A stretch of DNA of 64,000 nt from the NCBI RefSeq assembly GCF_041146795.1, contig NC_135185.1, positions 10,349,529-10,413,528 on the forward strand, written 5' to 3'. The notes under the pieces were generated by a model. The model ran no database searches and was not told the origin of the DNA. It saw only the letters and a program-made list of their open reading frames with translations. Numbering within the stretch: position 1 is the stretch's first letter; each line of letters opens with the position of its first letter. A program made the translations under genes and the position numbers. Source of the DNA: Maylandia zebra (lineage: Eukaryota; Chordata; Actinopteri; Cichliformes; Cichlidae). Shown piece after piece: positions 6,311 through 58,799 of this stretch.

Positions 6311-6589
6311 GGAGATGGCGGGGGAAAGAATTTTGATCAAAGTTAATGTCTCCACTTATTTCGAAAAGAAAAAAGTGGTATTACTTTAAACTGAGTAAAA
6401 CGGTATTTTGATAAAAGTTAAGGTCTCCGTTTGTTTCAGAAAGAGCATACTGTCATTTACTTGCTTTTATTATTTATTTATATGCCCTCCGCGGACCATC
6501 TCTGCACTGCGTGGGTGATTAGTGGCTCCCTGCACAGTAAGGGCTGCACACACAGGGACAAGACGCACTCGGTTACGATCGGATCTTCC

Positions 6590-7310
6590 CTGGGCAGGGG
6601 GAGGTGATGAACTGTATGCCACTTTTTCATTGGCATACATTAAGTACAATGTTTTATTGCCTACGGTGGGGGCAGGTCACATACTGGGTGAAGGTGGGCA
6701 GTGTGGAGTCCAGCGAGACATGATTAAAGTCCCCTGATATTAGAAGAAGAGCTCTCGGAGATTGCGTTTGCAGTCTGCGGACCACAGAGAGTCACAGGCT
6801 ACCTCCACGGATGCTAACCGCTAATAGCGCAATGTCTGTGTTGCAGAGTTGTTCTTTCACAGCGATGTGCCCAGAGATACCACAACCGTCTTTAACAAAC
6901 ACTGCCAGCCCCCCTCCTTTCCTCTCACCGCTGTCTCTCGTCTTGTCCGCCCGCAGCAGCTGGAAGCCGGGCAGCCTACTCACAGAGGGAGTACCGGGAT
7001 ACTGCCACTGTGACCGGGTTAGCGTCATTAGCTCCTCAATCATATCAGGGAGCGATCTCACATTTAAAGTGATTACAGGAAGGAGAGATGGTGTGTGAGG
7101 TGTCCTCGGGAGACATCACCCCCGTTTCTTCCCTCACTGGGGATGTAGGGTCTGTCTGCCGGTAGCGCAGCTGCAGGGCGCAGCGCTAACAGCTGATCCC
7201 TAATGTAAACAAAGGAGCCATGCGCCGAGTGTCCAAACACGGGTGAAAAAAGTGGAGACAAAAGAAGAGAAAAGTCAACATAACTAGCACGAAGCGGTAA
7301 TGCAAGATGG
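6590..7310 (-). mobile_element. Non-LTR retrotransposon (LINE) fragment, endonuclease region
   Basis: Minus-strand reading gives blocks typical of the apurinic-type endonuclease of fish LINEs: GFQLLRADKTRDSGERKGGG, then LAVFVKDG, LLAVSIRGG and, after a frame change, SGDFNHVSLDSTLP. The GDFN block is the conserved catalytic-region motif. No reverse transcriptase follows, so this is a broken 5' piece. The open frame 6792-7061 covers only the middle. Confidence 0.65.
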
Positions 7311-16200: not shown

Positions 16201-16250
16201 GCATTAACATCATCTAGCAGACCTTCTGGGGGTACTTCACGTAATCTTGG
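13229..16250 (-). mobile_element. R4/Dong/Rex6-type LINE, copy A (nearly full coding part, broken)
   Basis: The minus strand encodes, 5' to 3', an N-terminal part (16,003-15,713), a reverse transcriptase (15,709-14,711; motifs [29 protein letters not shown]), a linker, a CCHC-type [18 protein letters not shown] and a restriction-like endonuclease [18 protein letters not shown] (13,246-14,079). That order marks the R2/R4 group of LINEs, which cut target DNA with a C-terminal PD-(D/E)xK nuclease. An in-frame TAG separates the first two open frames, and the middle is disrupted by an inverted fragment at 14,545-14,770. The copy sits in the first intron of the IRG gene and its 3' end abuts a microsatellite. 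Confidence 0.85.
14545..14785 (+). repeat. Inverted LINE fragment inserted inside copy A
   Basis: Plus-strand codons here give AAQMNQLLVDERHPEWLTES and [20 protein letters not shown], the same region the minus strand encodes at about 15,350-15,550. It is bordered on both sides by a direct repeat containing cagttctgactaccttccct (about 14,519 and 14,771), so it is a short inverted insertion with a duplicated flank. Confidence 0.8.
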
Positions 16251-16254
16251 TAAC

Positions 16255-16924
16255 CGGCTACGGGGGATCCAGTGCAGGGACTGGGAATCTTGTCAAAGTT
16301 GAGGGACACATGGATTCCACTCAGTATCAGGAGATTCTGGAGACCAATGTCCAGGAATCAGTGACAAAGCTGAAGCTGTGCCGGGGCTGGATCTTTCAAC
16401 AAGACAACGACCCGAAACACTGCTCAAAATCCACTAAGGCTTTCATGCAGAGGAACAAGTACAATGTTCTGGAACGGCCATCTCAGTCCAGACCTGAATA
16501 TTATTGAAATCTGTGGTGTGAGTTAAAGAGAGCTGTCCATGGTCGGAAGCCATCAAACCTGAATGAACTAGAGATGTTTTGTAAAGAGGAACAGTCCAAA
16601 ATATCTTCAACCACAATCCAGACTCTCATTGGAACCTACAGGAAGAATTTAGAGGCTGTAATTTCTGCAAAAGGTGGATCTACTAAATACAGATTTCATT
16701 TCTTTTTTGTGGTGCACAAATTTTTGCACCTGCCTAATTTTGTTTAAACAATTCTTGCACACTTTCTGTAAATCCGATAAGCTTCATTTCACTTCTCAAA
16801 TATCACTGTGCGTGTCTCCTCCTAAGATATATTTAACTGACATTTTTTAATGTAACAACCAACGATTTATACAGCAAAATAATGACTATCAACAACGTTG
16901 CCCAAACTTTTGCATCCCACTGTA
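16255..16924 (+). mobile_element. Tc1-like transposon, 3' half only
   Basis: Plus-strand frames give Tc1 transposase blocks QEILETNVQESVTKL, GWIFQQDNDPKHCSKSTKAF and, after a frame break, LWCELKRAVHGRKPSNLNEL and IGTYRKNLEAVISAKGGSTK. The end at 16,905-16,924 reads caaacttttgcatcccactg followed by TA, the typical terminal repeat and target dinucleotide. The 5' half is absent, and the piece joins directly to the R4-type LINE. Confidence 0.8.
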
Positions 16925-16986
16925 TATACACACTGTAGTTGCAGATAATGCAGTGATTTTTATACTTTTTCTTTTTGTATTTAAAG

Positions 16987-19900
16987 ATGAGCATGGAAGA
17001 TCCAAATGATTCATTTGCAGAGGAAATCGCTGCCGTTAAAGAAGACCTGGAAAACAATGACACTGCTGCAGCAGCTGCAAAGATTCGAGAATATTTAGAC
17101 AAGCAAAATAACGTTCCACTAAATATCGCCATCACAGGGGAGTCTGGAGCTGGTAAATCCACCTTTATTAATGCCTTCAGAGGGCTGTCCGATGACGATG
17201 AGGGAGCTGCACCTACTGGTGTTACAGAATGCACCATGGTGGTTAAAGAATACCCCCATCCAAACTATCCCAATGTTACTTTTTGGGATCTCCCTGGAAT
17301 CGGCACCACCAAGTTTCCAGCTGATAAGTACCTGAAGCTTGTTGAATTTGAGAAGTTTGACTTCTTCATCATCATCTCAGACACTCGCTTCAGAGAAAAT
17401 GATGTGAAACTCGCTCAGGAGATTCAGAAGATGGAGAAAAAGTTCTACTTTGTTCGCTCAAAGATCGACAACGATATACGAGCTGAACGAAGAAAGAGAG
17501 ACTTCAGTCAAGAGAGGACCCTTTCGAAAATGAGGGAAAACTGCATCGGAGGTGAGTGTTGTTAGAGTTAATTCTTTTAAGATTGTCATTTGTGCAAAGA
17601 TATATATAACCATTGCTTGTGTATGTGCTGATAAAATGTCTTTTCCATGTCAATTCTACTTTTTCTGCATAATCCATCATACAAAATGTAATCAAATGGA
17701 AAAGTCTCATTTTAAACTTGTTTTATTAGTTTTAATCTTTAAAACAAATTAATTATATGCAACATTCTCTGACTTGAAGAAATTAGTTTAACATTTAAAC
17801 CTATTTTCTGCACATTCCAGCACATAAAATAATTTTTTGTGTGTGTTTACACTCACTCTTTCAAATAGATACAAGTAAAACACGGCAGAAAATAAAGTCA
17901 AAGACTAATAATAATAATGGATTGGATTTATATAGCGCTTTTCAAGGCACCCAAAGCGCTTTACAATGCCACTATTCATTCACTCTCACATTCACACACT
18001 AGCGGTCCTGTTGCTCTATTTTCACCTGTAAAGCAGGACTGGGGCACGCGGAGGTTTACCCTGGTGCAGGTGTGCCGCAGCGGTCAGTGGAAGAATCCGC
18101 GAGTTTCTCTGTGAGTTTCCCATCACGTCGTAGCTACTCGGTGCTTGCTCAGAAGTTTAGGGGGTTTTTTGCTGTAAAAAGAAGTTTTCTTCCCACGCAC
18201 AACGGACACTAATGTTTTTGTTACTTTTTATGGAATCAAACTCAAAGTAAGGTCAGTACTTCCACGCTTTAAACGCTGTACGCTCATACTCTCTCCCGCA
18301 CTCGATATATGATCCATTGTTGATCTGCACACAGCTGTTGCCACGAACGTCGCACTCGCTTACGTCACTGTCATGAGACACTCTCGCAAAAAAATCACGG
18401 GGCCTTTCTCAATATGCGTACTTGTGTGTACTTTCGTTCTCGTGTACTCGTGATACGTCATCAGTCAGAGACCAAGTACTGTTCCAATTCGAAGTACGCA
18501 TCAAGCCGAGAACGCGAAAAAGTCCCGGATGTGTTCTCGCTCCGCCCGTTTTATTGAGCATGCATTGGTGGTGACTTGTGTGGACTTTGTACAGCTAAAT
18601 ATCCCAGAATGCATTTAGTCCGAAACTCAAACGCGGCAATGGTGGACGAGCGGGGCTAAAAACTTTTAAATATTACTCTTTCTGGGTCACAAAATAAACT
18701 TTTAAGTTATTTTCCAGCGAGAATGTAGCTGTGTAAACTTCAAATATCTGCTCGATTTATCAAGATATCACATATTTCCAAACGCGCTCCGACGTTTTCG
18801 GAGACGTCTGTGACCCGCCCGCTCCATAGCAGACAGCGAGGTTGAGGATTATTAGAGCCGGCGAGAACAGCGGGCTCCCAGCACATCGTTTTCAACCCCC
18901 CCGCGGTCTTTTCGCTACTCAGGTTAAACAAACCCCAAACCCCAGTAGCTGTCTATTGTAATGAGTGTCCACTACAATAAAAATAAAAGCGTTCTAACAT
19001 CTCACCTGCTTGTTTTTATTAAGGTATGTACACGTATGTACATGTACACTACTTTTTTTAATAGAGATTTCACTACTGAGGTTAAACATGATATATAAGT
19101 CACTTAGATCACTTCTAAATGTTAATGTTTGGTTTTATTTGTTCCTGAGTAAACCGGTTTGGCTGCGATTAAAGTTAAGCTTCATAACATATTACTCACA
19201 GTTGAATTAAGAGGGGACGGCAGTAAAAACTCCAGACCGGTGACATCATCAAGTACGCTGGTGTTCCAATTGTACAAATCGCGAGTTCGTACTCGCGTAC
19301 TTGAGAATTGAGAAAGGGCCACGGTTTTAGTAACGCAGTAACGCAGCGTTCCTATGGGAAAGTAACGGTAATCTAGTTACCTTTTTTGCAATAGTAATCC
19401 CTTACATTACTCGTTACTTGAAAAAAGTAATCGCGTTACTGTAATCCGGCAGTAATGCGTTACTTGTAATGCGTTACTGCCCATCTCTGCCTATGAAATC
19501 CTTTATCACTAAGTGAGATTTGTGTGTCCATCATCCCAAACTCTGCACTGCAGAAAAAAGATTTCAATGCAGAGTCAACTCTGGTAAAAATCAGGGAAAA
19601 CTGTGTTCAAGGTGAGTCCCTTTTTAAAAATTTCTGTGGTAAAAAGTGTAGTTATTGCTCACAAACAAAAGCAAAAGCTCTTTTTAAAGTTTGTTTTCAG
19701 TATTAACACTGAACAACACCCAACAGATTACAATATTAAACTAAAAATAAAATTAAACAACTGAATTCAGTCTGGTTTGCAGCCTCTGTGTGTCCTTTCT
19801 AAAATCTGAACTTTGTAATTGGGTTCTTGTTTCACTGAGTCACAGTAAGGTGTGCAGGATCATTTGTTTAATGTTTAATTTTGCAAACTGAATATTAAAA

Positions 19901-20662
19901 TCATATTGTACATGTGCTTTCTCTGTTTTTTTTCCCCACATGGTTTATGTAAATACCATTTTACTAATCTTACTGATTCTCAATCATAAACTCTGAATGT
20001 TGTTGTTTCTCTTTTATAACTCAGGTCTTCAGGAACAAGGCATCAAGTCTCCACAGGTCTTCCTGGTGTCCAGCTTCGAGCTCCACTTGTACGATTTCTC
20101 TCTCTTACATGAGACCTTAGAGATAGACCTTCCTGCACAGCAGAGAGATGCTCTGCTGCGAGCCATGCCCAACATCAACCTGGAGATCATCAACAAGAAG
20201 AAAAAAGCGTTTCAGTCTAAAATAAAATACTGGGCTACTCTGTCTGCAGCTGCAGCAGGGGCTCCAGTTCCTGGACTTTCCATTTGTATGGACCTGTCCA
20301 TGATGGTTAATGTAGCCATAGATTATGTAGTTGGGTTTGGGCTTAATAAGCCATCACTGCAGAAACTCTCTGCCACCTCAGGTGTGCCCTACACTGAGCT
20401 GCTTAATGTCCTTAAATCACCACTGGCTGCAGCAAAAATAACCCCAGAGCTTCTCCTGAAGCTGTTGTCCCAACTGACCAGCACAGTTGCACTCATGGCG
20501 CTAGAGGAAGGATCCAGGTTGATTCCATTAATAGGAATCCCTCTGGCTGCGGGCCTCTCCTTCACCACAACCTACAGAGCTCTGAAATATTTCCTCACTG
20601 AGCTCGCTGATGATGCTCAGAGGGTGTTTAAAAGGGCTCTGGGTCTGAACACCTCAGTGTGA
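16987..20662 (+). CDS. Interferon-inducible GTPase (IRG family), two coding exons
   Basis: IRG proteins are interferon-induced GTPases that act on pathogen-containing vacuoles and membranes. Exons 16,987-17,551 and 20,025-20,662 join in phase (GG/GT glycine) to about 400 residues, the usual IRG length. G1 is GESGAGKS at residues 51-58 (GKS type), G3 is DLPGIG at 101-106 and G4 is RSKID at 157-161. The C-terminal exon encodes the helical IRG domain, with SPQVFLVSSFELHLYDF and a hydrophobic stretch around VPGLSICMDLSMMVNVAIDY. The ATG follows the acceptor AG directly, so a leader exon (12.86-12.95 kb) must precede it. The intron contains another IRG exon-end remnant (19,551-19,611), a Harbinger-like element and repeats. 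No frame break is seen, so the gene looks functional. Confidence 0.9.
17918..18000 (+). repeat. SINE-tail-like repeat
   Basis: TTTATATAGCGCTTTTCAAG and CAAAGCGCTTTACAATGCC, followed by a CATTCACTCTCACATTCAC block, resemble the tail of the SINE copies at 3.8 and 60.1 kb. No tRNA-like head is recognisable here. Confidence 0.4.
18400..19320. mobile_element. Harbinger-like non-autonomous DNA transposon, 921 bp
   Basis: The ends form an inverted repeat: left gggcctttctcaatatgcgt, right complement ggccctttctcaattctcaa. A 3-bp direct repeat ACG flanks it (18,397-18,399 and 19,321-19,323). GGGCC-type ends and 3-bp duplications fit PIF/Harbinger elements. There is no transposase. An internal block at about 18,660-18,810 is shared, inverted, with the element at 22,455-23,982. 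Confidence 0.65.
19321..19495. repeat. Dispersed repeat rich in GTAACG/CGTTAC
   Basis: A series of GTAACGCAG, GTTACTTG and AATGCGTTACT blocks ending GCCCATCTCTG. This looks like one half of a fish hAT-type MITE. A comparable repeat is at 29,880-29,996. Confidence 0.45.
19551..19611 (+). pseudogene. Remnant of a second IRG GTPase exon
   Basis: The peptide KKDFNAESTLVKIRENCVQG, followed by a gtgagt donor, is the counterpart of RKRDFSQERTLSKMRENCIG at the end of the neighbouring IRG exon. Only the last 20 codons remain; the GTPase part is missing. It indicates an earlier tandem IRG copy here. Confidence 0.75.
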
Positions 20663-20689
20663 TATTATAAATGGCAACTTCTTTAATGA

Positions 20690-21740
20690 CACTTAAAACT
20701 AGTTTAAACCAAAAAAATTAGATTTTGATTTTTTTTTTTTTTAAAGTAGACTGAATTAAATCTCCTGAAATCGATTGCTTAAATTATAACCGAGGCTTGT
20801 AGTGTAGAGTAGTTCCTCTGATCAGAGCAGAAACAGAAGAGTAACTTCTCCCAGCTTCTCACACTCAAACTCTCAAACTTTCCATCACATCACAGGAACT
20901 AATGTGATCTTATTATTCAGATATGAACTGTGTATACTGTAGAAGAGCTACTGAATCATTGCAATGATGTGTTTCTTTGTTCTTTGTGTTGTTGTTATTG
21001 CCAGCACTAGAGTGTGATGAGTCTGATTGTTTTGTTATCACATCATAGCATCCAGCATAATAAATACCAGCTATTAAAGAGTGGATGATGTAATGTGATA
21101 AAACAGAGGTGTGTAGAACAGAAACTGCTCTGTGGTGTTTGAGTCCTGTTGACTGTAATTTGTGATGAGTGTTTACCGCCCTCCAGCGGTCACAGTGAGG
21201 AACTACAACACAAATAATACAGATATGACTGCATGTTCATCAACGTTATTCCTGCTTGCTTATAATAAAATGTTATTAATAAAGATATTAACATTAATTG
21301 TTATTAGTAGTAGTAGTAGTAGTAGTATTTGATTTTGATGAAACAATAGATTCCACTGCACCAAACAATACATTATGAGTCTTATCTTCGGTGGACAAAA
21401 TATTAGAAACCTTAGTTTGACACTAATCGTTCTTCCCTACAAAAGACTTGAGCTTTTTCTGTCCTAATGTAGCTAAATAAAACATCTTTAAACGTCTGCT
21501 GCTGCAATTAATTATTTTCTTTCAAAGCTAATTGGTTTTTAGATATTTGGTCTATAGACAAATTAAGAAGCAGTGGAAGAATATCTGGTTTTCTCTCATT
21601 AAATTGCAGAAGAATTTGTCCATAGGGTCATCAATAAATGCACTCATACTTTCACTCAAGTGTTGTGATGAGAACGTGTTAACAAACCAACGCTATGTGA
21701 AAAATTGTCGGTATGTTACGCGTCCAGAGGCATGAGAGAA
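20690..21740. other. IRG 3' flank, no further gene seen
   Basis: AT-rich DNA after the IRG stop, with AATAAA-like sites near 21,060 and 21,279 and a short (TAG)n run at 21,308-21,326. Either AATAAA could end the IRG transcript; I cannot decide which. Confidence 0.4.
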
Positions 21741-44347: not shown

Positions 44348-44739
44348 AGATTTGGTCTTTTAAAGGCATGTGGTCCTGAACTTTTGATCAGCTGTAAAAC
44401 AGTCTGTTTGAGTTTAAGTGATGTTTTCAATTAATTACACGCTCAAAAAATGTTTTGTCTCATTCTCATTTCTTCTTGTTGCACATTGAAGCTTTACTTG
44501 GAACCTTGTTAAGATCTAAACATGCAAAATATGATTTTTGACATTTTTCAGGTGGTCTTAAACTTTTGATCGGGACTGTATTTTCATTATTACGCAGATG
44601 AGAACCTGTTTTATTTATGTTATTTATCTTAATCACATAAATGTCTGAATGAATTGTATTTCTAAATTCAGAAAAAAACAAGGTTTTAAAATTTGTCCCT
44701 AAAAATCAGATTCTTAGTTTAGATCCAATTTCCCCTCCT

Positions 44740-44746
44740 TTCAGGA
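44740..44746. repeat. Target site duplication, left (TTCAGGA)
   Basis: TTCAGGA here and at 58,740-58,746 directly flank the 545-bp inverted repeats. The match is perfect over 7 bp. Confidence 0.8.
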
Positions 44747-45291
44747 CAACCCGTTCTCACTCCCGACGCGTAAAATAATGACGATTTGTCACGTCCCTTA
44801 ACTTCTCATGCTGACGCCTAAGGTACCCTTCCACGTTTTTATGTGACGCTGTGGGTTGTCAATTCATTCCAATATGAACCCGCTCGCGGCGATCAGAGAC
44901 GCTTCGAGCAGAGGCTCCAGCCATCCATTTACTCCAATAATAACCCCGTCACGGCGAAACATGACGCCGTGAAGCACAATCTAACTTGAGAACCGGGGAC
45001 CCTCTCCGCGAACGGGTTTTTCTCCCTAATTTAATGCTTTCTTTTAATGACATCGTTAACATTTCTCAACAAAAACACGAAAGTATCACTGATAATTCAA
45101 CAATAAAATCGCTTCATGTTGTGGCCATCACACAGTGTTTTCCAAACTGATTCACGATCTGAAAGTGCGCAGATTTAACGTACATAATCCTTTGTTAGGT
45201 TTATTATTTTCATTTCACACGTAAAACACATTTATAGATTCATTCACCACTCCTGCTAGTTTTGGATGCGCTTGGCTCCAACCAATCAGAC
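44747..45291. repeat. Left 545-bp terminal inverted repeat of the KDZ element
   Basis: It begins caacccgttctcactcccga. It aligns without gaps to the complement of 58,195-58,739. Confidence 0.9.
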
Positions 45292-45519
45292 CAATTTACG
45301 CAGACGCACTAATCCCGTAACTGCACACTACCCATAATCCTCAACCGCCGTCGCTATGGAAATGAAGATAACAACAGCTTGGTGCTACCCGTTATTCCTT
45401 TATTTACTCTAAAATAATAACCAGCGATAATACGAAATTAAACTGGCCCAGTGTTTAATTATGTAATTAAAAAATGCAAATTGTATTATTTTATTTTTTA
45501 CAAATTGCAATATTTATCT

Positions 45520-45672
45520 ACAGCGCGCCTTTAGCGACACGTCAACAGATCTTAAGCAAGGCGATTGGATGGTTTTTACTGCAATGCATCTTGGGAGTCG
45601 TAGTAAATGTATCTTTCAACTCACGGTCCTGCAGCGAAGTTTTCGACTGGACACGAGGCAGATCCTAGCTAA
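45520..45672 (+). promoter_or_regulatory. Probable promoter and leader exon of the plus-strand KDZ-element gene
   Basis: A GC-richer stretch with a CGATTGGATGG reversed CCAAT-like box precedes a candidate untranslated exon that ends at 45,672 before gtaagt. The next acceptor is at 46,108-46,109 (catttgcag), just before the ATG at 46,112. The start of transcription is inferred. Confidence 0.4.
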
Positions 45673-46111
45673 GTAAGTTGTGATAAACTGTGGGTAATTT
45701 GCATGTTCACTGAAATATTAATTTCAGTGATATTAAACTGATATTAAACTTGAAATGTTTTCACAGAGCAGTCTGTGTACCAAGAGAACTACTTCTGCAA
45801 AAGTTTATTTAAATTTTTTTGTGATGTATTCTCATGTGTAAGACACTTGCTTGGCCACCCAGCTAATGTTAGTACTGCTCTATTTTAGCAATGTATCTTT
45901 TCTGTAATCAATTCAGGGTTTTTTTTAACCCTATTCACGTAATTAACTCAATATTAATTACTTTAATCTCGTAATTGATTTTTTTCTTCTAAATATGGTG
46001 TAATACTGCCTCGTAATATAAGTTATTTCTTTGGTCATAAATTATTTTTGTAATCGTTTCACCAAAACAGACCTGAAATAATCCCTACATGTTCCATTTT
46101 CATTTGCAGAA

Positions 46112-49100
46112 ATGACAAAGCCAAAAACCAAACCATGCCCTTCCTGTCAGGCCCCAAACACCTGCAACAGGAAGACATGCAGTGGATGCCTGGGCAGCCT
46201 GAACCTAAAGGAGGGATTGAAAAAAAAACAAGAACAGTTTAAAAACAGTAACTGGGCTGCCTCTGTTAAAAAAAAACAGAAATGCGAGCAGGGTGGTTAA
46301 TTCAGCCCAGTTGTCAGTAAGTTTAAAAGTTCTGATCTAATAAGTGGTTGGTCTGGTAGACAATTCTTTATTAATCACAGTTGTCAATGTTTTCTTGTAT
46401 ATCATGAAGTAAGAAACTAACAAGACATGTATATACACATAAAATATTAATTTATAAAAGAGCATAAATAAAAAAGTTATTCACATCAGAATAACATCAT
46501 CACACTAAAGACATCAAACTAGAAAAAACTTGTTAAAAACTATTTTTATTCAAGCTACTTCTGATTTTTAATTTAATCGGCTATTAACTGAGAGACAAAA
46601 CATTTCAAGATGGATTTTATCATACATTTACAGGTTTGGTCACCATAAATACTTTTTAACTATCGACAACAATAAAACAACAAAGATGTGAAACTTAAAG
46701 GTTTGTTATACATCAATTTGCTTACATGAAAGACTGGCTGCATGTTTTTCTTTGTTGTTCTTGCAGGTTTCAAAGCTACATGCCCTGGGCTACCAACCAA
46801 TTCTGTTTCTTGGACAGTTTGACCGTAAGGGCCGTATAGTAGGGGATGTGATCACTCAGATCGAACCAGCAGAAGGTGCTGCACGTGACATCCTCATGAA
46901 GATGAGGAAGCTTTATGAACACCTTCTGAGAAGTAAGATATGCTTTGTCCATTATCTGTAACCAGGTGTCCTTATCAGGTAGCCTATCCTAGCTGTCTTT
47001 GGGTGATACTCATGGTACACCCTAGATAAGAAGGCAGATCATCACGGGGTACATAGAGACAAACAAGATGGTGAGGATGAGGATAGTTAACAGTCACCAG
47101 CTATTCTGTTCTACTCTACTCTATTCTGTTCTATTCTATTATTCAGCCAAGGTTCAGACCAGTAACCTTCTTGCTGTGAGGTGACAGCTGCCCTACGTGT
47201 CCTGTTGCTAACATGAAAATAGTGTTATATCTGCCTTATTACCTCCCCATGTGTCGGTCACATCACCAAAGCTAGCCATACTGAACCTCTGGTGTTACCC
47301 ACCTGAACAATTTTGTATGTGTGTGTGTATAGTATGGTCTTTCACACTCATGTATATACAAATGTAATTTTAAAAATCTTCACGAAAACCAGACCTGATA
47401 ATTCTCTTCGAGACTTTCTAGTATAACAAATGTTATATAATGTTACCAATATGAACACCAAGATTCTTAAATAACTTATATACTTCTTAAGAGGTTACCT
47501 GATTACCTCCCTGAGGTAGTTAGCATCACCATTGTACAAAACTCCTAAGTCACAGTACTAGCTTGAAGTGTCAAATGTTATTCACTACAAAGTCAGGAAA
47601 GTAGTGTCATCAGAGGAAAAAGTCATTATCTATCTGGATTTATAGTCACACTCATTAATTTATTAATGTATAATGTAGAAAAGCACTACAGATGTCACAC
47701 TACCCTAGAGGGCACTTGTACTGAATTATTTGGGTCAGTGAGTGTGCGAGATGACTTATTTGATGCCAATATTTACCAGTTGTATCTTTAGTAAAAACTT
47801 AACTGAAAACATGCAAATCACTACTTATTATGTGTTTATGTGTACTGTACATTTTTTCAACCCATTTTAATGAATGTTTAATATTTAAAATTTTTCAGAA
47901 TTACAAGCTTCACCTCCTGCTAAAAGTTCTACACCAGCAGCTGGACCATCCTCTGCTGACAGTGTCGATGCTGGACCAGTCCCAGACCCAGAGGCTCTAA
48001 ACGAGGAATTTATTCTTCATTTAGAGCCTGTACCAACATCTTCCCTCTGTCAGCCTCCTGCATCCTCCTCTCCATCTCTGCTTCCTCCTGCATCCTCCTC
48101 TCCATCTCTGCTTCCTCCTGCATCCTCCTCTCCATCTCTGCTTCCTCCTGCATCCTCCTCTCCATCTCTGCTTCCTCCTGCATCCTCCTCTTCATCTCTG
48201 CTTTCTCCTGCATCCTCCTCTCCATCTCTGCTTCATCCTGCATCCTCCTCTCCATCTCTGCTTCCTCCTGCATCCTCCTCTCCATCTCTGCTTCCTCCTG
48301 CATCCTCCTCTTCATCTCTGCTTTCTCCTGCATCCTCCTCTCCATCTCCACATCCTGCATCTCCCTCAATTTCTACGGTGTACACCTCGGATGTCCCAAA
48401 CAAAAAAAGGACAAGGAAAGGTTAGACGTTATGGTATTGTAAATGTACGAAACACATGACATGTTCGTTAAGTTTGTTAAGATTTCTTTTTCTTAATTTT
48501 TGCATTTTTTCCAGTTTTACAGAACTCATGTAAATATTTCATTTGTTATTTTTCAGAATGCCGAAAACACCGTACACAGAAGATTTTCAAATATGAAGAG
48601 ATAGTAGACAGGAGATTTGTAAATGTAAGTAATTTAGCCCGCTGTTGTGCAGATTTGTTTGCGTCTTTGGACTTCCCGGATTTGAACTGTGCCTGACTGA
48701 ATATCCATAAGCTTTTGTATTTGATGAATCTACACTAATTCAGCCACTGAGTCAGGATTTCACTCCAAATAGGACATTAAATAATAACAGACCACCTGAT
48801 ACGACTTGGTCATGCTGCCTTCCTGATGTTTACGTTCTTTAAAGTCCTCCTGACATCATGCTCAGAAGGAGTGATTGATGTGGAGGTGCTCCTTCCCATT
48901 CAGTAACATCTGCTTCAGTTAGTTTTGCTTGTGAGCCACAATGTAAGCAGTGTTGCTTTGCTGACATGCACTCGATGCTGGCAGTACAAGCATTGTAGTG
49001 GTTCTTATGTTTTTGTAAACTAATTGTATAATATATTGAGCCATTCAATAGTACACAAATGTTTATAAGCTCCTTTTTGTATGCAACTTGCATGTCTTTC

Positions 49101-49716
49101 TTAATTAATTGTTTGTTTATATCATGTTTTTCAGGAAAAAGAAGAAGTTAAAGTCAAGTGGAAGCCTTGCTCAACATGGTATGTAGTAACAACTTTGTTG
49201 GACGGGAACAGACATTCATATTGTTGATAAATAGTTATCAACTCAATTTGAATTCATGTATTTGGACTAAAGTAAATTGGGAGCTTTTAGCTATCGAGCT
49301 CCTCTTCTGTGAGGAGCTTGATAGCTGTCCACCTCCAAAGTCCATTATGAGTTTTTGGAGGTGGACATGGTCAACACTTTTAAGAGTAGGCATAAGACTT
49401 TACTTCTTTATAGAGCTTATAGTTAGGGCTGGTTCAGCAGGTTCCAATGGATCGTGGCTGCTGCTGTGGTCCTGCTTGACATCTACTACATATATTAATA
49501 CTCTCTGACTTGATTTGATTAATTTATATTACAATGAAGGTGTATAAAGCATGACATGAATATAGAAGATATTTCATCCTAAAAAATTGTCATATGTCAC
49601 AACCTAAATTGTCCTATTTTGTGTGTGGTTGTCGTTGTTGTTTGTTATGTTTTTCTCCTGACAGTGGCAAAGTGTGGGATGACACATGGGAACCTGCGCA
49701 GTTTTACACACAGTAA
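46112..49716 (+). CDS. Zinc-ribbon / chromodomain-like accessory protein of the KDZ element
   Basis: Function unknown. Exons: 46,110-about 46,297 (ATG 46,112; CPSCQAPNTCNRKTCSGC, a CxxC-x5-C-x4-CxxC zinc ribbon, then Lys-rich), 46,767-46,932, 47,899-48,420, 48,557-48,624, 49,135-49,178 and 49,665-49,716. The last five join in phase at GT-AG borders. The third holds about ten PPASSSPSLL-like units. The last three together encode FKYEEIVDRRFVN, then EKEEVKVKWKP and DDTWEPAQFY, which align with the chromodomain pattern (aromatic, E-x-x-D-R-R, VKWK, DxTWEP). Chromodomains bind methylated histone tails. The second cage aromatic after WK is replaced. The splice linking the zinc-ribbon exon to the second exon is not resolved; they could be separate transcripts. 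AATAAA follows at about 49,783. Confidence 0.65.
48051..48350 (+). repeat. 30-bp minisatellite inside the accessory gene
   Basis: About ten tandem copies of a 30-bp unit (cctcctgcatcctcctctcc plus ten more bases) encode a 10-residue Pro/Ser/Leu repeat in the plus frame. The unit length keeps the frame. The opposite strand reads as a Glu/Met/Arg coiled-coil-like frame, which is a shadow. Confidence 0.9.
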
Positions 49717-49780
49717 ACCAGGCACCACAGGTCGCAGAGATCGCACAGTTCACAGCTTGTAGTTCAGCATAAAAGTTCAA

Positions 49781-49788
49781 AATAAAAT
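49781..49788 (+). terminator. Poly(A) signal of the accessory gene
   Basis: AATAAA lies about 67 bp after the stop at 49,714-49,716, in caaaataaaatat, and is followed by a TG-rich region. Confidence 0.6.
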
Positions 49789-49829
49789 ATTTACTATACA
49801 TTTCAACCAGTGTCAGTCTCTGTTTCACT

Positions 49830-51225
49830 CTCTAATTGTGGCTTAAGTACCTAACATATTCATGAATCTGATCGATCAATAATATCTTCCCTGCACTCGA
49901 CATCTCATAGTTTTACATATCAGCCAACATTATTGTCTACATCCTCATAAATATAGAAGTGACTTGCTTATTATAACATATTACAAGGTAAAGTAATACT
50001 GCACTGCACGTATAGTGAGTAACACCTACTGTGTATGGGAGCCTAAAGCAAAGTTAACTGCACCAGTACCAGCTTCAGAACATATTGTATATTATATGTT
50101 TCTACCTTTTTGTAATGTGTCATGTTTAGATGCAGTGACAATTGCACATTTGGAGTTGTGGTCATATGTGGTCTTTATATACAGGGTATTAAAAAAAATT
50201 GACATTTTTTGCTATTTTTCTTGTTTGTTTGCACAATATTATTGTGTACATATTACATATGTAACATTATTGTTAATATTATTATTAGATATCAAAGATA
50301 CAATTTGATTGAGGGTTTTCCTGTCATAATTTCAATAAAAATGCAATTACACACGTAAACAATAGGATCAAAATAAACTTTTAAAAAGTCTGTTGATCAA
50401 ATGCTGATTTTCAAAACATTCTAGAGGAAAACAGAGATAAAATAATCTGAACAGTAACAGTGATTGTGGATGATGATGGAGGCTTCAATGGATTATTCTG
50501 TTTCAATCAATAGGTTTGTATCTATGACAATAATTTGATAAGTTTAACAGGTTGGTTTAGGCCTGGCAATACAGCAAATATTCACAAACTTTTGTTTTTG
50601 AAGAATGTTTATCTTTTTTGGGATGAAGCTATCTGGCAAAATGAGACAACCCTTTTAACCTAATCTTTATGTCTTTTTTGTGGCTATGATACTGGATTTT
50701 GGTTTGATGCATATGCAGGTTACAGCTGGGGAATGGCAGTATGTTGTGGATTGATTTGGCATGTTCAACCACTGTTACACCAAACTCTCTCACTTATAAC
50801 ATGATGAAGGCCTCTTACTCAGTGTCATGGATTTTCTATACTTTTGGGGACACAGGGCCAAAGTCTGAGGCAATAAGTCAGATCAAAGAAGGCAATGATT
50901 CTAAAATGGGAGTTTACTTATGTCATTATATATATCCAGGAATATGTGCCAGAGGATAGTTGTCATGAAATCAATATTAAATCAAAGTATTCCTTAATGA
51001 CCACAGCTGGCATGAGTTCTCCAAAGCTGCCTGCTGTCTCAGGATCTGTCTCCAAAAAGGACCAGGGAGCGCTAACATGTTATGTTCTAAACTGATGAAG
51101 AAAATGCACATTAAACATAGTATAAACTTACTGAGTGAAGTAATGTCAAGAGGATTCCTTTAGCTCCTATTGGGTTGGTTCCTTGATCAATGCAATACAG
51201 AATCATTAATCTGGTTTTATGTAAT
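49830..51225. other. KDZ-element interior without a recognised gene
   Basis: AT-rich DNA between the accessory gene and the Tc1-like fragment. A possible element end, acagggtattaaaaaaaatt, at about 50,186 has no visible partner. Short open frames show no known motif. Confidence 0.4.
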
Positions 51226-51229
51226 GTCC

Positions 51230-52010
51230 TCAAAACATGTCAAAATGAGGCTCACTAGTCTGTGTGGCCTCCACATGCCTGTATGACCTCCCTACAACAT
51301 CTGGGCATGCTCCTGATGAAGTGGCAGATGCTCTCCTGATGGATCTCCTCCCAGACTCCAGGACTAAAGCATCTGCCCACTCCTGGACATTTTGTGGTGC
51401 AGTTGGTGGATGGAGCGAGACATAATGTCCCAGATGTCCTCAATTGGATTCAGTTCTGGGGAATGGGCGGGCCAGTCCACAGCATCAATGCCTTCGTCTT
51501 GCAGGAACTGCTGACACACTCCAGCCACATGAGGTCTAGGATTGTCTTGCATGAGGAGGAACCCGGGGCCAACCGCACCAGCATATGGTCTCACAAGGGG
51601 TCTGAGGATCTCATCTCAGTACCTAATGGCAGTCAGGCTACCTCTGCCGAACACATGGAGGGCTGTGCAGCTCCCCAAAGAAATGCCACCCCACACCAAA
51701 ACTGACCCACTGCCAAACTCATGCTGGAGGATGTTGCAGGAAGCAGAAGGTTCTCCACAGCGTCTCCAGACTGTCACAAGTGCTCAGTGTGAACCTGCTT
51801 TCATCTGTGAGGAGCACAGGGCGCCAGTGGCAAAGTTTCCAATCTTTGTGTTGTCTGGCAAATGCCAAACATACGGCACTGTGTTGGGCTGTAAGCACAA
51901 CCCCACCTGTGGACGTCGGGCCCTCATACCACCCTCATGGAGTCCATTTCTGACCGTTTGAGCAGACGTGCACATTTGTGGCCTGCTGGAGGTCATTTTG
52001 CACAGCTCTG
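51230..52010 (-). mobile_element. Degraded Tc1-like transposon fragment inside the KDZ element
   Basis: The minus strand gives GPGFLLMQDNPRPHVAGVCQ, FLQDEGIDAVDWPAHSPELN, PIEDIWDIMSRSIHQ, RSMPRCCREVIQACGGHTD and, further upstream, TIGNFATGALCSSQMKAGSH-like blocks, as in a known fish Tc1-like family. Frames are shifted several times and both terminal repeats are missing or unrecognised, so it is dead. Confidence 0.75.
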
Positions 52011-52524
52011 GCCTTTCTTTCCTACCCCACAGTACCTTCCCTTACCATTTGTTTCCTACTCTTTTACTTCTTCTTTGATGACGGTTGTCTTTCTAGATAA
52101 GCAATTTCATTTGCTCTGGGGCGAGTCAATGGCTCGGGTGCATTCTGGGACTGTCAGTTCACCAGTGTGCTGGCATGCTTCTTAACAAACACACCACTAC
52201 AGCAAACATCTCAATTGTACTTGTTGATTTCTTGGACAAAACACTGAACAAAAAATGTACTTGTGAGTGTGCTGCCTGGTGCTTTTAAATTTTGTGATTA
52301 TTTGAGCAGCCCAGAAAGCATCCCATGAATTAAATTATGTTATCGTATCTGAACATGTGCACGAGTCATTAACTTAGATGGGAAATAATGATTCAGGGTA
52401 AACAACTGCACCAAGGAAATTCCATTTTTCTTCTCAAAATGTAAAATGTCTGTTGAAAAATCACATTGAACAGAGATGTGATTAACTTTTTATTTTACCA
52501 AACATAACATCAATGATGACACAA

Positions 52525-55319
52525 TCAGTCTTCATCAGAAGTGCTCAAATCACTCTCAGTGGCATCGTCTGGAATGTCCTCCTCCGAGTCCATTTCCAGG
52601 AGTGGTTGGTGGCTGAGGATTCTCTTGTACACGTCCTTTACTTTGAGCATTTCAGCTTTCAGTTCACTTTGTTTTTTTAAAACCAGGCTACAGAGTCCCT
52701 TCTGTGCATCCTCCGACATGCCAACAAAGGAGGCTGTAAAAAGAACAAAACAAATAAATATGAGAAAAGTAAAAAAAACAAACAACAAAAAAACATCACC
52801 TCATAAACACAAGGAATTAGGATGCTGTAATTAAACATTTTTTTAAAAGGGAGAAGGCAGTGTTAGCTAGCAATCTAGATATAGGTAAAAGATCCAGTAA
52901 GACTTTAGCATCTGCTCTTATTTTCAATCGATTCATCAAAAAATTAATAAATAAATAAAGTGCTTACAGTCTGAGGAGATTGTCCCCAACACCACAGAAC
53001 GCATTCGCAACACTGTCCAGTGATGCTGCATCTCCCTGCAAAGGATCATCTCCTCCTCTCTCAGGCGCCTCACAGCCATCACCTTCTCAAAGACCTCTTT
53101 GTCCGGAGGTCAGCAGCAGCTACAGTTTAACAACATCAGATGGGAAAACATAGCAGCATATTATGATTCAAGAACAAAACATTCAACTACTGCTCAGATA
53201 CTGGGAGTTTGTTTAAAAAGGATATTTAGAAATCAAGAGCTTACGTTCACTTGTGCTCTGCCAGGGCCAAATATCGGTCTGCATGAGGGCATCACTGGAT
53301 ACGATTTGCTTTGTTGGTTCAGCGAGCTTGTTGTAGTCGTCAACAGCAGCCGCCAAGCGTTTCTTCTCAACTAAGATGACCTTGCGAATTCTGTGTCGCC
53401 TCTTGTTGCTATCTGTAAATAATCATAAAAAATTCACACCTTCACATAATGTATATAGTTTCATTTTAATCTACACTCATCAATTTGTTTGCTAGAACAA
53501 ATCACATCCAGCTTAAACAAACCTGGATCTGATTTGATTCTGTTTACAAAGTAGCTGCACAAGCTGTACAAACTGAGCATCAAACGGTCCGTTTCAAAGA
53601 AACTGGGACGTACCATTTTGTCTGTAAAGACTTTGTGTTCGCACTCTGATGATGACGACAAGCTCCTCTATTCGTGCCTGCAACGCTCCAAGGCTGCCAT
53701 CAGTTAGATCACTTTCTAAGTGAGAGGAATATTAATCAGAATACAGGATGAGTAACAGTCACCAAACTACAGTGGACTCTGTAATCACTGACTTGATGAC
53801 ATTCATTATAAGACATCTGGAGCCTTCATGTGCTGCTATCTCATGATGATCATGAGATAACAAGTATGTTGGTGTTCAGGTTTATAAAACCAACTAGTAC
53901 GACATCATTTCAACCCAGGTTCTATCCAATTTGATGAAACGCAACAACTCTGCCATAAATTTGCTTTTACAAGGCTTATTTTTCATTGTTTGTTGACACT
54001 GTCAGAAAGATCTTAACTCTAAGTTCTTTAATGAGGCCATGGTGGGTCCTATTGTTATACATGAGTGCATTATATTGAGACTCACCTTCAGCCCATTTCT
54101 GCACATCGGCCACCCATTGCTGCAGTGTGTCGTCATCCACACCCAGCTCATTTCTGGTCGCATTCAGGCTCTCCACTTGTTCTCTAAGGATCCTTATGAT
54201 CTAAGAATGCATTCATAAATGTCATTCATATTGACATTAAAAGAGTACTGGTGTTTTCCCCCATTACCACACACATTAAAATGGGTGTTGAAAAAATGAC
54301 CTTTAGATATCGCTGGCTCAAAGTGCGGCCCAGTTGTTCCACTTTCCTTTTGTTCCACCCCAAAGCCAGGAGGGTCAGCATGTCTGTTCGCCCTGCATTT
54401 CAGTTAGTATACAAATTAGAATTAATGAGCAGGAGACTGAGTGGAATCTCAGACACGGACACACACCTGCTTTAGACATGTACTTCGTTGTGATGGCCGC
54501 CCTAGAAAGGAAACTGTTTACTTGTTCCACCTCTTCTCCAACTGTTGAACCGGCCCCATCCTGAAACGCACCTCCCCATTTGATCTATGGAAAGGAGGTC
54601 ACAATACATGACTGCTGAATTCATTCAACCTTATAACAAAATGTCTCAAACTAATCCAAAACTACAAGCTGCAGTATACCTCGCATTTCCAAGTGTGAGC
54701 CTTTGCATGCATGACGGAGAGAAAAGGACGCATTGACAAGAGGTTCCTCAGCTCAGGGCACTGCTGAGCCACCTTGGTTAAATAGGGGAAATATTTACAG
54801 GCCACATCGGAGCAAAGGAACGTAATATGTCCTGGGATGCTAGCTGCCAACTTCCTCTGGAGAAAAAGGGGGTAAGCAAAGATCTCCCCTCGAAACATGT
54901 TCAATGCAGCTAAGAGGACTCCGTGGCGACAAACAGCTATTTCCACGCCCTCCTCATCCAACTTCCCAGTGGACTTTTTGGACGACTCCTTTGCTGCAGT
55001 CCAAGATGAAGATCCGCACAACCCTTTCCCCGGGACCTATACACTCAAAGATTTTAACATAAAAGATATGACATGATTAAGCCCTATCAGGGACAAACTT
55101 TTTAAAACAAATGCATAACAATTAGCTGAATTAGCCTCGAGTCACACAAGACCTCAGATCTCCCCAGGACAGCACTGATAACACAAAATAAAAATCATGT
55201 TGTTTTTTTTAAATACACATGGTGACAAAATTAAGTAAACATTAAGATAAAGTAAAGTAAATAGTATTACGACAACACCAAGAGAAAAATAAAAAAAAAT
55301 ATCGACCCATCCATATATG

Positions 55320-55360
<41 letters not shown>

Positions 55361-57182
55361 ATGTGTATATGGTTACGGCATTAACGTCATTTTAACAAGA
55401 GTAACGCTAACAGCACTAATATATATATATATGTGTATCTTACATGATTTGTGTGTCTCTGGATGTATTTCACAAACTCAGCAACTTCCTCATCTTTTTC
55501 AATGAAGACACCTTCAAAGTTCCCCTGCTCTGAAGTGCTGAACGAACACAGTGACAGTTGTTTGAAAAGAAACATTAAAATACATTTTTCTACAAATCCA
55601 TATTTGACTTATGTACACAATGCATAACGTACCTTGCATTAGACTGAAAGCGATAAAGCTTGCGGTTTCCATCAACTGAGACGGCAAGCATGTCTGGAGT
55701 GCAGGCAGGGCAGCTAAAGCATGGCTCCTTGCACATCCTGTCCACCTCAAACTTTACAGCACTCCACTCCAAGAAACTTTTACTGAAGGCATCAGCTGAT
55801 ATTCGGCCATTCTTTTACATAGAGGACATACAACAGAATATTCAAGGACAGTCATCATAAACATTGATTTGCACAATTTCCTTAAACTTAGCAAATTTAG
55901 AAACTCACCCTTCCAAAATGGGCTGTTCGTTCATCCAGCATTTTGACAAATGCCTTAAGTGACATCCCTGGTGCAGCTTCTTAATGTCATAGAAAGACTG
56001 AAAGACATCCATTGAAAACAGGGTGCAGAAATTTAAGGTGCCAGGCCAATATCCACTACCCAGGATGTCCTTAACTGAGGGGGACCACATTAGGCTACAG
56101 CTGGTGCAGCTCACCACTGGCAGTGCAAGGTTATAACGGCCTTTAGAAAGGATAAGGATAAATTCAGTCATGGCTCAAAGCATTCATTTTTTTCATGTTG
56201 TTTTCAAATCGGTCTGGTAAATCCAAATGACCTTTGACAGGTGCCCACATATACTGCGGGCCGAGGGTAATTAAAACCAAGATAGCAATGCACAATTTGC
56301 AATAAAACCTCCAAACACATCTATTGTGTATGTAGTGTGTGACAAAAGGGCAACTTACCATTTATGGTTACAAGAGCCACAATTGCACCGGGTGAAACCT
56401 CAACGTTACCTGCTGGGCAGTCACACACAGTCTGGTCTTTGCACAGGCAACAGTCGAACTAACATTAAAACACACAATATATATAAAAAGAATTAGAAAT
56501 TAACTGATACACAATAAATATACAATAACAGCACCCACTCATACTCATACATAGCAAGAAATGCATAAGACTTAAAAACTGTACCTATTGGCTTGTGAAA
56601 CTCTGATGAAGGCTGCAAAAACCCTCCTGTTACTGCCTCTCTGTTGTGCAGGACAAAGCGTGTGTGAACTGCAATATCACAGTCAGCACAAAGGAATGGA
56701 AGAGGCAGGCAGTCCAGACACCTCACAACTACTTGTTTGCCACACTGACACACACGGTGTGACTGTGGATCCAGAGTAGCTAACATATTGTCTATAAGAC
56801 AAGGCCTGGCCTCTTTCCACTTTTGCGAGGACACCATATTTCTGATCGCCCAGTGAGTAGCAGCTGACTCAGACGACGTCTCACAAGTCATGGCTGCGTC
56901 CTCTTCTCCATCCTCCAACAACTGAAGGAGCTCCTGACGAAGCACCTCAGTTCCATACACTAACAGAAAAAAAATAAAGAAAGGAAGAAACTCTGAAAAA
57001 CACTCTAGGCAGTATGTTTCTTAGGACTCCACAAAAGCCCTGCATAACTCAACTATAACAACAAATATAAAAGTAAACAGAAATCACAATATATACAAGA
57101 AGGTAAAGTACCTTTTGTTGGGTTGACACTGGCAACATAACTAGGTTCTTCACGTGGACATTGATGCTGCTCTCTGGACAGT

Positions 57183-57213
<31 letters not shown>

Positions 57214-57994
57214 TGAAGAATATTTACTTACTGAAATTCTTTGGTGAAAACAAGTTGTGAGATAAAATCAATGGTTGTGTGAACACTGACCACGTGGCAT
57301 GCAACTAGTACTTCGACTGGTTGATGGTCTTTGAGGAATAAAAGCTCCCTGTCTGTCACGTTTTTTCCAGCGCACTGGTCTTGGCTGAGGTTCACTCTGT
57401 GCATCATTCTACGCAATTAACAAGGAAAAAAGGGAACACCTAAAATACAGTCTATGATTAAAGCAAAGATTATAAAACATGTTAAGTTAACCAACTTAAT
57501 TTGACATAAACTTAAAAAAAAAATTCAAATAACATAACGTTTACTCCGTACAAAATATTAGACAAGCGTGTTCCCTCTTTAACAACTGTTTCCACTAAAA
57601 ATGTTACCTGCATATCTTGAAGGAGTTCGTCAGCAGCCTGAAGCTCTTCCTCCAGCTCGGGATCCTCTGAATCACTCATTTGCAAGCTAAAGAGGAAAGA
57701 GATTTTTGCAGAACTCAGTGACATAAACACATAACTAACGCAATTCAAATGATTTTCAGTCTTGGCGCTCCGGTTAATGTTAGCAATTAACGTTAGCATC
57801 ATCAGTTTGTAAAGAGCTAGCAGAACTCTTAGCGCAAAAACTGCTTTACGCACCATGTGAGGGTATTTTGCAGCACACAAGTCCTTTAACGTTTGTAATA
57901 GATTTAATCCATCATCGTTGGATTAAATGGCTAATGCTGCAGTAGACACGTGTAGTCGTTACCTAGCAAGCATGCTGACGGTAGCTGTAGCCAT
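52525..57994 (-). CDS. KDZ-family transposase, about 16 exons
   Basis: Coding exons (all minus): 57,963-57,994 (possible first, MATATVSMLA), 57,608-57,686, 57,291-57,408, 57,112-57,171, 56,585-56,959, 56,359-56,458, 55,909-56,140, 55,633-55,811, 55,444-55,537, 54,680-55,036, 54,467-54,584, 54,301-54,392, 54,086-54,200, 53,614-53,715, 53,245-53,412, 52,968-53,096 and 52,525-52,733 (stop 52,525-52,527), about 840 residues. An acidic N-terminus precedes a CxC-type cysteine cluster (CQCGKQVVVRCLDCLPLPFL and CADCDIAVHTR). The core has VSVDGNRKLYRF (first Asp, 55,671-55,673), CRHGVLLAALNMFRGEIFAY, CSDVACKYFPYL (second Asp, 54,806-54,808), MHAKAHTWKCE and GEEVEQVNSFLS (Glu motif). The acidic C-terminus ends STSDED. 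Exon 55,909-56,140 contains a one-base frame change near 55,980, and the join 56,585/56,458 is out of phase, so this copy is probably inactive unless these are sequencing errors. Confidence 0.85.
55322..55358 (+). repeat. (AC)n microsatellite in a transposase intron
   Basis: A short AC run in the intron between the exons at 55,036 and 55,444. Confidence 0.9.
57183..57212 (+). repeat. Poly-G run
   Basis: About 30 G (poly-C on the transposase sense strand) just upstream of the acceptor used at 57,171. Such runs are error-prone in sequencing. Confidence 0.9.
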
Positions 57995-58194
57995 TTTTAA
58001 ATACATTACACCGTTTCCGAGATCAGTCACCTCTGTTTGTTTGAAGCGTTTATGAAAAAACAAACTTTGAAACACACATCAAGGTATTACTTTAAATATA
58101 TGTATTTTTTACATACCTGCATTAGAATCAATCAGTTCCGCCTCATTTTCTTATTCTTATAAATGGGTCTCTCTGTTCTCCCATCAGCCTTTGC

Positions 58195-58739
58195 GTCTGA
58201 TTGGCTGGAGCCGAGCGCGTCCAAAACTAACAGGAGTGGTGAATGAATCTATAAATGTGTTTTACGTGTGAAATGAAAATAATAAACCTAACAAAGGATT
58301 ATGTACGTTAAATCTGCGCACTTTCAGATCGTGAATCAGTTTGGAAAACACTGTGTGATGGCCACAACATGAAGCGATTTTATTGTTGAATTATCAGTGA
58401 TACTTTCGTGTTTTTGTTGAGAAATGTTAACGATGTCATTAAAAGAAAGCATTAAATTAGGGAGAAAAACCCGTTCGCGGAGAGGGTCCCCGGTTCTCCA
58501 GTTAGATTGTGCTTCACGGCGTCATGTTTCGCCGTGACGGGGTTATTATTGGAGTAAATGGATGGCTGGAGCCTCTGCTCGAAGCGTCTCTGATCGCCGC
58601 GAGCGGGTTCATATTGGAATGAATTGACAACCCACAGCGTCACATAAAAACGTGGAAGGGTACCTTAGGCGTCAGCATGAGAAGTTAAGGGACGTGACAA
58701 ATCGTCATTATTTTACGCGTCGGGAGTGAGAACGGGTTG
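58195..58739. repeat. Right 545-bp terminal inverted repeat of the KDZ element
   Basis: It ends gtgagaacgggttg. It is the gap-free complement of 44,747-45,291, and the target duplication TTCAGGA follows at 58,740-58,746. Confidence 0.9.
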
Positions 58740-58799
58740 TTCAGGAACTCTAAGGAACATTTAACCATCGACTTTTAATGTAGATATTTAAAAAAAATA

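Follow-up and report, generated by a model that had tools for sequence, protein, structure and literature searches.

A full-length, frame-broken copy of a probable cut-and-paste KDZ-superfamily DNA transposon in the cichlid Maylandia zebra

A 64,000-nucleotide stretch of the Maylandia zebra genome (contig NC_135185.1 of assembly GCF_041146795.1, forward-strand positions 10,349,529 to 10,413,528; hereafter the window, whose own numbering is used) contains, at 44747-58739, an element of 13,993 bp limited by CAACCCG and CGGGTTG, which is very probably a cut-and-paste DNA transposon of the KDZ superfamily, present here as a full-length copy with a broken frame. An inverted-repeat scan of the window returned a single pair, 44739-45291 and 58195-58747, with 99% complementarity, and the 17-bp tip, allowing two mismatches, was present at two sites in the window, both of them element ends, where 0.01 was expected. 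A previous examination of the letters alone (the sequence-only reading) had proposed 545-bp inverted ends with about five mismatches, a perfect 7-bp flanking repeat and a multi-exon KDZ gene. The arms differ at exactly 5 of 545 aligned bases, TTCAGGA stands on both sides, and the open reading frames (ORFs) of the window match the Pfam domains KDZ (6.2e-19) and CxC3 (5.9e-11), so that these proposals held; the second of the two convergent genes of the element (transposase on the minus strand, companion on the plus strand) and the breakage of the frame in this copy had been overlooked. The limits of the element, with its terminal inverted repeats (TIRs) and target-site duplications (TSDs), are as follows.

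44740-44746: left TSD, TTCAGGA, read directly
44747-45291, plus strand: left TIR, 545 bp, tip CAACCCGTTCTCACTCCC
58195-58739, minus strand: right TIR, 545 bp, 5 mismatches against the left arm
58740-58746: right TSD, TTCAGGA, read directly

Using splice signals and homology, we modelled the transposase gene as 15 exons running from 57679 to 52525 on the minus strand. A 16th small exon is suggested by the Oreochromis protein P0001, and for exons 4 and 13 the acceptor is uncertain, no AG being present at the modelled position in any copy.

57608-57679, minus: exon 1 (MSDSEDPELEEEL...); the homologue P0001 has the same start
57291-57408, minus: exon 1b, from AG/GT signals and P0001
57113-57178, minus: possible small exon (SREQHQCPREEPSYVASVNPTK), suggested by P0001, coordinates placed by hand
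56585-56959, minus: exon 2, first cysteine cluster
56355-56458, minus: exon 3, frame-disrupted in the window copy
55909-56136, minus: exon 4, CxC3 region, frame-disrupted in the window copy, acceptor uncertain
55633-55811, minus: exon 5, first D (VSVDGNRK), presumably catalytic
55444-55537, minus: exon 6
54680-55036, minus: exon 7, KDZ core, second D (CSDVACKY), presumably catalytic
54467-54584, minus: exon 8, E (GEEVEQ), presumably catalytic
54301-54392, minus: exon 9
54086-54200, minus: exon 10
53614-53715, minus: exon 11
53245-53412, minus: exon 12
52968-53122, minus: exon 13, frame-disrupted in the window copy, acceptor uncertain
52525-52733, minus: exon 14 and stop

Frame-changing differences are present in exons 3, 4 and 13 of the window copy, and its reading frame ends at residue 200. 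The spliced protein of another copy, C15, matched the KDZ profile (PF18758) over essentially its full length (profile positions 3-217 of 217, 9.5e-34, 117.4 bits against a cut-off of 26.6), and it also carried the KDZ-associated cysteine cluster CxC3 (PF18804, 53.6 bits). When 63 relatives were aligned (P0002 numbering), E521 and E522 did not vary at all and D341 and D462 hardly did; D341, D462 and E521/E522 we take to be the catalytic D-D-E residues of the transposase. The KDZ profile had 21 matches in the host genome, all above the cut-off, and none in 14 control genomes. An AlphaFold model of the transposase had a predicted local distance difference test score (pLDDT) of 73.9 and a predicted template-modelling score (pTM) of 0.71, while a profile search of the PDB returned only three weak matches, all plant CONSTANS zinc-finger proteins (best E 0.026).

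Comparison of the 545-bp end with the host genome gave at least 41 matches, 20 of which form at least 10 inverted pairs lying 9.8-21.7 kb apart; 40 of 430 candidates were scored, so that these counts are lower bounds. The ends therefore do recur as inverted pairs elsewhere in the host (10 in this search), as a mobile element of the kind that the sequence-only reading had proposed should show. The ten two-armed copies are C19 (the window copy), C15, C9, C6, C3a, C2, C33, C18, C4a and C4b. Stretches aligned between the compared copies were mostly 96-99% identical, with indels and nested insertions in addition, and the lowest identities were about 92% (the arms of C6, gapped) and about 94% in one interior stretch; alignments below 150 bases were dropped in the first comparison and those below 80 bases in the second. 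Judged by these alignments, the ten paired copies constitute one family. The idea that C6, C2 and C18 had unrelated interiors was rejected, the same element being present there in the opposite orientation. The remaining 21 of the 41 end matches are unpaired; the flanks of 18 were inspected, and none was used in the TSD counts. At C4:2069539-2187622, where C4a and C4b are both complete, three ends have an identical left flank, by which this locus is duplicated, and three further pairs of single ends have common flanks.

A TSD could be read at seven of the ten copies, with a length of 7 bp in five of them and 8 bp in two; defined ends together with a 7-8-bp TSD are thus found in 7/10 two-armed copies, and the junctions of three were examined through their empty sites.

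7-bp TSDs: C19 TTCAGGA; C15 GAGATTT; C3a GTCAAAC; C2 TATGTTG; C33 TCTCAGC
8-bp TSDs: C9 CTTTTTCC; C6 GTTATGAA

With a query made of the C15 flanks and one GAGATTT, all 40 scored matches (from 827 first-look candidates) were 100% identical over 125 bases, and the empty-site sequence was seen in 5 of 12 loci inspected, a one-strand text search giving no hit in the other 7; the repeat that received this insertion seems, by eye and from its frame, to be Tc1-like. The corresponding query for C9, with one CTTTTTCC, gave 11 matches, nine of them full length at 97-99%; the remaining two are the flanks of C9 itself, at query 1-77 and 70-136, with an overlap of exactly 8 bp. The empty-site sequence was seen in 2 of 6 loci inspected. 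For C2, 39 of 40 matches (from 93 candidates) cross the junction at 81-94% identity and 36 have equal side lengths, as judged from match coordinates and not from sequence. These searches support a length of 7 bp for two copies (C15, C2) and of 8 bp for one (C9). Since one family yields both lengths, TSD length is no lineage mark, and the 7 bp on which the sequence-only reading had partly based a distinct, recently mobile lineage is not distinctive. The other part of that proposal fared better, a recent movement of the family being supported by the 96-99% identity of the copies and by the empty C15 paralogues at 100%.

We compared the arms within and between copies. With indels counted, the two arms of one copy differed by a mean of 1.03% in nine copies (C4b being omitted as a duplicate of C4a), whereas permuting the 5'-3' pairings gave 1.39% (P 5e-5). 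With indels ignored, the means over ten copies were 1.09% within a copy and, between copies, 1.44% for opposite arms, 1.53% for 3' arms and 1.07% for 5' arms. This suggests that the TIRs may be homogenised by arm-to-arm gene conversion or recombination. No convincing motif enrichment was seen in the TIR, where the top 5-mer occurred 6 times and the largest count in shuffles averaged 6.7 and reached 11. Within the transposase gene, 79 of 2,496 coding and 123 of 2,669 non-coding sites varied among copies (C4b again omitted, as were sites at which fewer than four other copies were covered), and selective constraint on the transposase is suggested.

Several observations weigh against a functional cut-and-paste element. 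C15 is the only one of the ten copies in which the whole model is open (832 residues and a stop). C9, C6 and C2 have no premature stop in the part recovered, but exon 7 of C9 was incompletely recovered, the stop and one splice signal are missing from C6, and C2 is internally deleted and lacks exons 5-14, yet has a 7-bp TSD. The other six copies have premature stops in the transposase. The ratio of non-synonymous to synonymous polymorphism (pN/pS) among copies was 0.67, with P 0.10. No TSD was seen at C4a or C4b, C18 has lost the terminal bases at one end, and the junction query for C6 returned 40 matches, all partial repeat matches, which leaves its 8-bp TSD without empty-site support. With indels ignored, the 5' arms of different copies are on average no further apart than the two arms of a single copy, so that the homogenisation signal depends on the comparison of opposite-side arms. 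A Foldseek comparison of the transposase model with solved structures gave 159 matches with E≤10 and none with E<0.001, and an RNase-H fold is therefore not confirmed. The family is known from its sequence, and its activity is predicted.

The tips of the element are also found outside the ten copies. Allowing one mismatch, the 17-bp tip occurred at 689 sites genome-wide as compared with 4 for the reversed control, and four of four extra sites sampled belonged to another, short element type, so that at least part of the 689 tips lie on short elements; two of these were read whole. The first 87 bases of the short element gave 40 matches at 100% among the 40 scored (549 candidates). The two read whole measure 433 bp each and are 98.4% identical to each other, and one of them adjoins a repeat unit that is unoccupied and has 2 mismatches. 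Over their first 46 bases, the two ends share 28 and 37 positions with the KDZ TIR, where the control reached at most 22 in 6,286 positions. It is a serious possibility, although we lean away from it, that these elements are driven by another transposon family and have the tips alone in common with ours: blastn aligned only 27 and 46 bases of their ends with the TIR, to which the homology is confined, and one tip reads CAGAGCG rather than CAACCCG. The excess of shared positions over the control speaks against this, as do the 7-bp TSDs of both elements (GCTAAGA and GAATAAC).

The companion gene has six exons between 46112 and 49716 on the plus strand, whose coordinates were placed by hand.

46112-46316, plus: exon 1, zinc-ribbon-like CPSC...CSGC, frame shifts in an A-run
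46767-46932, plus: exon 2
47899-48420, plus: exon 3, Pro/Ser-rich, with a 30-bp tandem repeat at 48054-48348
48557-48624, plus: exon 4, start of the chromodomain-like part
49135-49178, plus: exon 5 (EKEEVKVKWKPC)
49665-49716, plus: exon 6 (GKVWDDTWEPAQFYTQ, stop)

The protein begins with CPSC...CSGC, followed by a middle part, a Pro/Ser-rich stretch containing the 30-bp coding repeat and a C-terminus of the form KYEEIVDRR...VKWKPCSTCGKVWDDTWEP. We found 26 homologous proteins in several other fish (the named ones are from fish, and some NCBI rows are also labelled Mustela), of which the Oreochromis protein P0122 is 90% identical over the entire query. The C-terminus (query residues 16-55) resembles HP1-type chromodomain proteins (CBX3, CBX1), with CBX3 as the best match (E 3e-4) ahead of other chromodomains, and differs from them by an extra CxxCG-containing insertion ahead of DDTWEP. 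With 24.4 bits, the match of the C-terminal 60 residues to Pfam Chromo falls just below the cut-off of 25.1; among the homologues, 6 of 13 matched at E≤0.1, P0122 not being one of these. A structure model had a mean pLDDT of 47.1, too low to judge a chromodomain fold, and the front half showed a weak likeness to Pfam MMU163 in 8 of 13 homologues (best P0122, E 0.0029, 17.3 bits against a cut-off of 26.6).

A second KDZ family in the host genome, with two copies 98% identical to each other (C22:19562300-19578500 and C1:35404400-35420600), encodes a transposase 36-61% identical by exon to that of the window family. On the strand opposite to it, in an order common to both copies, lie the companion-like exons CRRCSRQKVFQFEEVTESRI, EVKVRWLPCS and GKIWDDTWEPA, with tblastn E values in the C22 copy of 0.036, 0.26 and 3e-4, respectively; the joined companion C-terminus of this family gave no Pfam Chromo match. 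Since companion-like exons also accompany another KDZ family, the companion is likely to be a conserved partner gene. The companion could instead be a passenger without a part in transposition, a view that is possible but which we doubt. In favour of it, the frame differs between copies through changes in the A-run and in repeat length, but the recurrence of its C-terminal exons beside so divergent a transposase, again on the opposite strand, and the existence of homologues in several other fish argue against this view. As to the extent of this variation, the frame containing the 30-bp repeat measures 418 residues from stop to stop in C6 and 178 in the window, and in exon 1 the A-run lengths shift the frame differently in C19 and C15, the two copies translated; some A-run differences may be homopolymer assembly errors.

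On one further point the sequence-only reading needs correction, in that CxC3-bearing KDZ proteins are widespread in fish. A total of 279 were found with E≤0.001, and all of the named ones among the 120 listed are from fish. Such proteins, e.g. LOC102077695 of Oreochromis niloticus and LOC112434374 of Maylandia zebra, have the same domain order as the transposase of the element and are recorded merely as uncharacterised or hypothetical, their ends, TSDs and companion gene not being recorded there; the C18 copy appears to be LOC112434374. P0001 is 90% identical to the transposase over the best-aligned 47%, and the Phoxinus protein P0003 is 70% identical over 97%. In a tree of 68 rows, built with Shimodaira-Hasegawa-like approximate likelihood ratio test (SH-aLRT) support only and including neither fungal KDZ nor the original Zisupton proteins, the transposase fell inside a nine-row clade (SH-aLRT 100) with proteins of Oreochromis, Simochromis, Centropristis, Osmerus, Phoxinus and Leuciscus. 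Another M. zebra protein clustered with Xiphophorus outside this clade and probably belongs to the second KDZ family.

The element has much in common with platyfish Zisupton, namely the superfamily, a multi-exon gene, a large size, a fish host and recent mobility. Zisupton, reportedly described by Bohne et al. in 2012, is said to measure 11 kb, to carry 99-bp subterminal inverted repeats with an 8-bp TSD, and to have one 24-exon gene with a splice form encoding a C-terminal Ulp1 protease. Our element differs from this in its length of about 14 kb, its two genes, its 545-bp TIRs and its TSDs of both 7 and 8 bp. It also gave no Ulp1 match: all nine matches to PF02902 in the genome lie outside the copies, so that a Ulp1 domain within the element is rejected and its absence, already noted in the sequence-only reading, is upheld. 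That the element is Zisupton in the strict sense, with these differences as family-level detail, is conceivable, and we rate it below an even chance: the transposase domain is the same, and the 8-bp length of two of the seven TSDs is that given for Zisupton and Dileera in PMC12730594, but the 7-bp TSDs of the other five, the lack of Ulp1, the long terminal repeats and the second gene fit poorly. Other sources describe terminal inverted repeats without detected TSDs in nematode Zisupton (PMC9297572) and large zebrafish elements classed as Zisupton (PMC11202377).

A place in a Kyakuja-like lineage with 7-bp TSDs and CA...TG tips is unlikely. In PMC12730594, Kyakuja has these two characters and no TIRs, as described for two Laccaria families (Kyakuja-1_LB and -2_LB, with 5'-CA..TG-3' termini), which carry TET/JBP genes; the lack of TIRs may be a mark of Kyakuja at large or just of these two families; the element resembles them in its KDZ transposase, in its CAACCC...GGGTTG tips and in five of seven TSDs, but it has 545-bp TIRs. 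Two copies have 8-bp TSDs, and inspection of the element's ORFs, with no profile search aimed at TET/JBP, brought no such gene to notice. CA...TG tips, moreover, occur on unrelated mobile elements. Finally, an assembly or segmental-duplication artefact imitating a transposon, for which the common flanks of C4a, C4b and one further C4 end and of three other single-end pairs might speak, is scarcely credible, since seven copies have distinct flanks and a TSD of their own, and it is refuted by the empty sites of C15, C9 and C2.

For the family, read as a cut-and-paste KDZ transposon, we propose that the D-D-E transposase would recognise the tips and the inner parts of the TIRs, excise the element and join both 3' ends to the target at a stagger of 7 or 8 bp, the repair of which would produce the TSD. 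Copies with a damaged transposase, such as the window copy and C2, and the 433-bp elements with the same tips would be moved in trans by the enzyme of an intact copy, and gene conversion or recombination between the arms would maintain the similarity of the long TIRs. The least certain step concerns the companion, a protein with an HP1-chromodomain-like end, which may help or direct integration. More broadly, and as a speculation that we think rather improbable as a whole, fish CxC3-type KDZ elements might be two-component systems, in which a KDZ transposase with a flexible 7/8-bp stagger acts with a conserved zinc-ribbon/chromodomain-like partner, which would read chromatin and direct or license the insertion; in Malawi cichlids, one such family would now be driving non-autonomous 433-bp copies, several hundred of them.

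Of the DNA transposons of eukaryotes, KDZ elements belong to the less well understood. The exact ends, the junctions supported by empty sites, one uninterrupted natural frame and short elements with the same tips make KDZ cut-and-paste directly testable. The results indicate that KDZ lineages cannot be sorted by a TSD of 7 or 8 bp alone and point to a conserved chromatin-type partner gene; the short elements, if truly KDZ-driven and still moving, would supply insertion variation to a group of fish that is radiating fast. The novelty lies chiefly in the companion gene and the short elements. The literature listings searched showed no title on this fish KDZ family, which does not prove that there is none, and the portions seen of PMC7599744, PMC3424704 and PMC4202336 add nothing on KDZ element structure. 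A pangenome transposable-element library for M. zebra and Astatotilapia calliptera, described in PMC11202377, could already include the family.

Other features were observed within the copies and among their relatives. The window copy contains the remains of an older transposon.

51364-52041, minus: old Tc1-like (DDE_3) fragment, broken by stops, within the element, from ORFs and Pfam

This fragment lies inside regions common to most copies and in the stretch deleted from C2. In C18, element positions ~13547-21027 hold a retrovirus-like insert between repeats of ~0.66 kb, and a lone repeat about 94% like these is present in C9 at 6483-7145. The second KDZ family has different ends, with repeated GCCGAAAATGTTTTTGC units near one of them, where the C22 copy has two tandem 163-bp units. 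In the tree, the KDZ proteins P0040 of Solea (a sole) and P0104 of Onychostoma (a cyprinid) are ~0.08 changes per site apart and nested among percomorph rows, which makes this pair a candidate for horizontal transfer.

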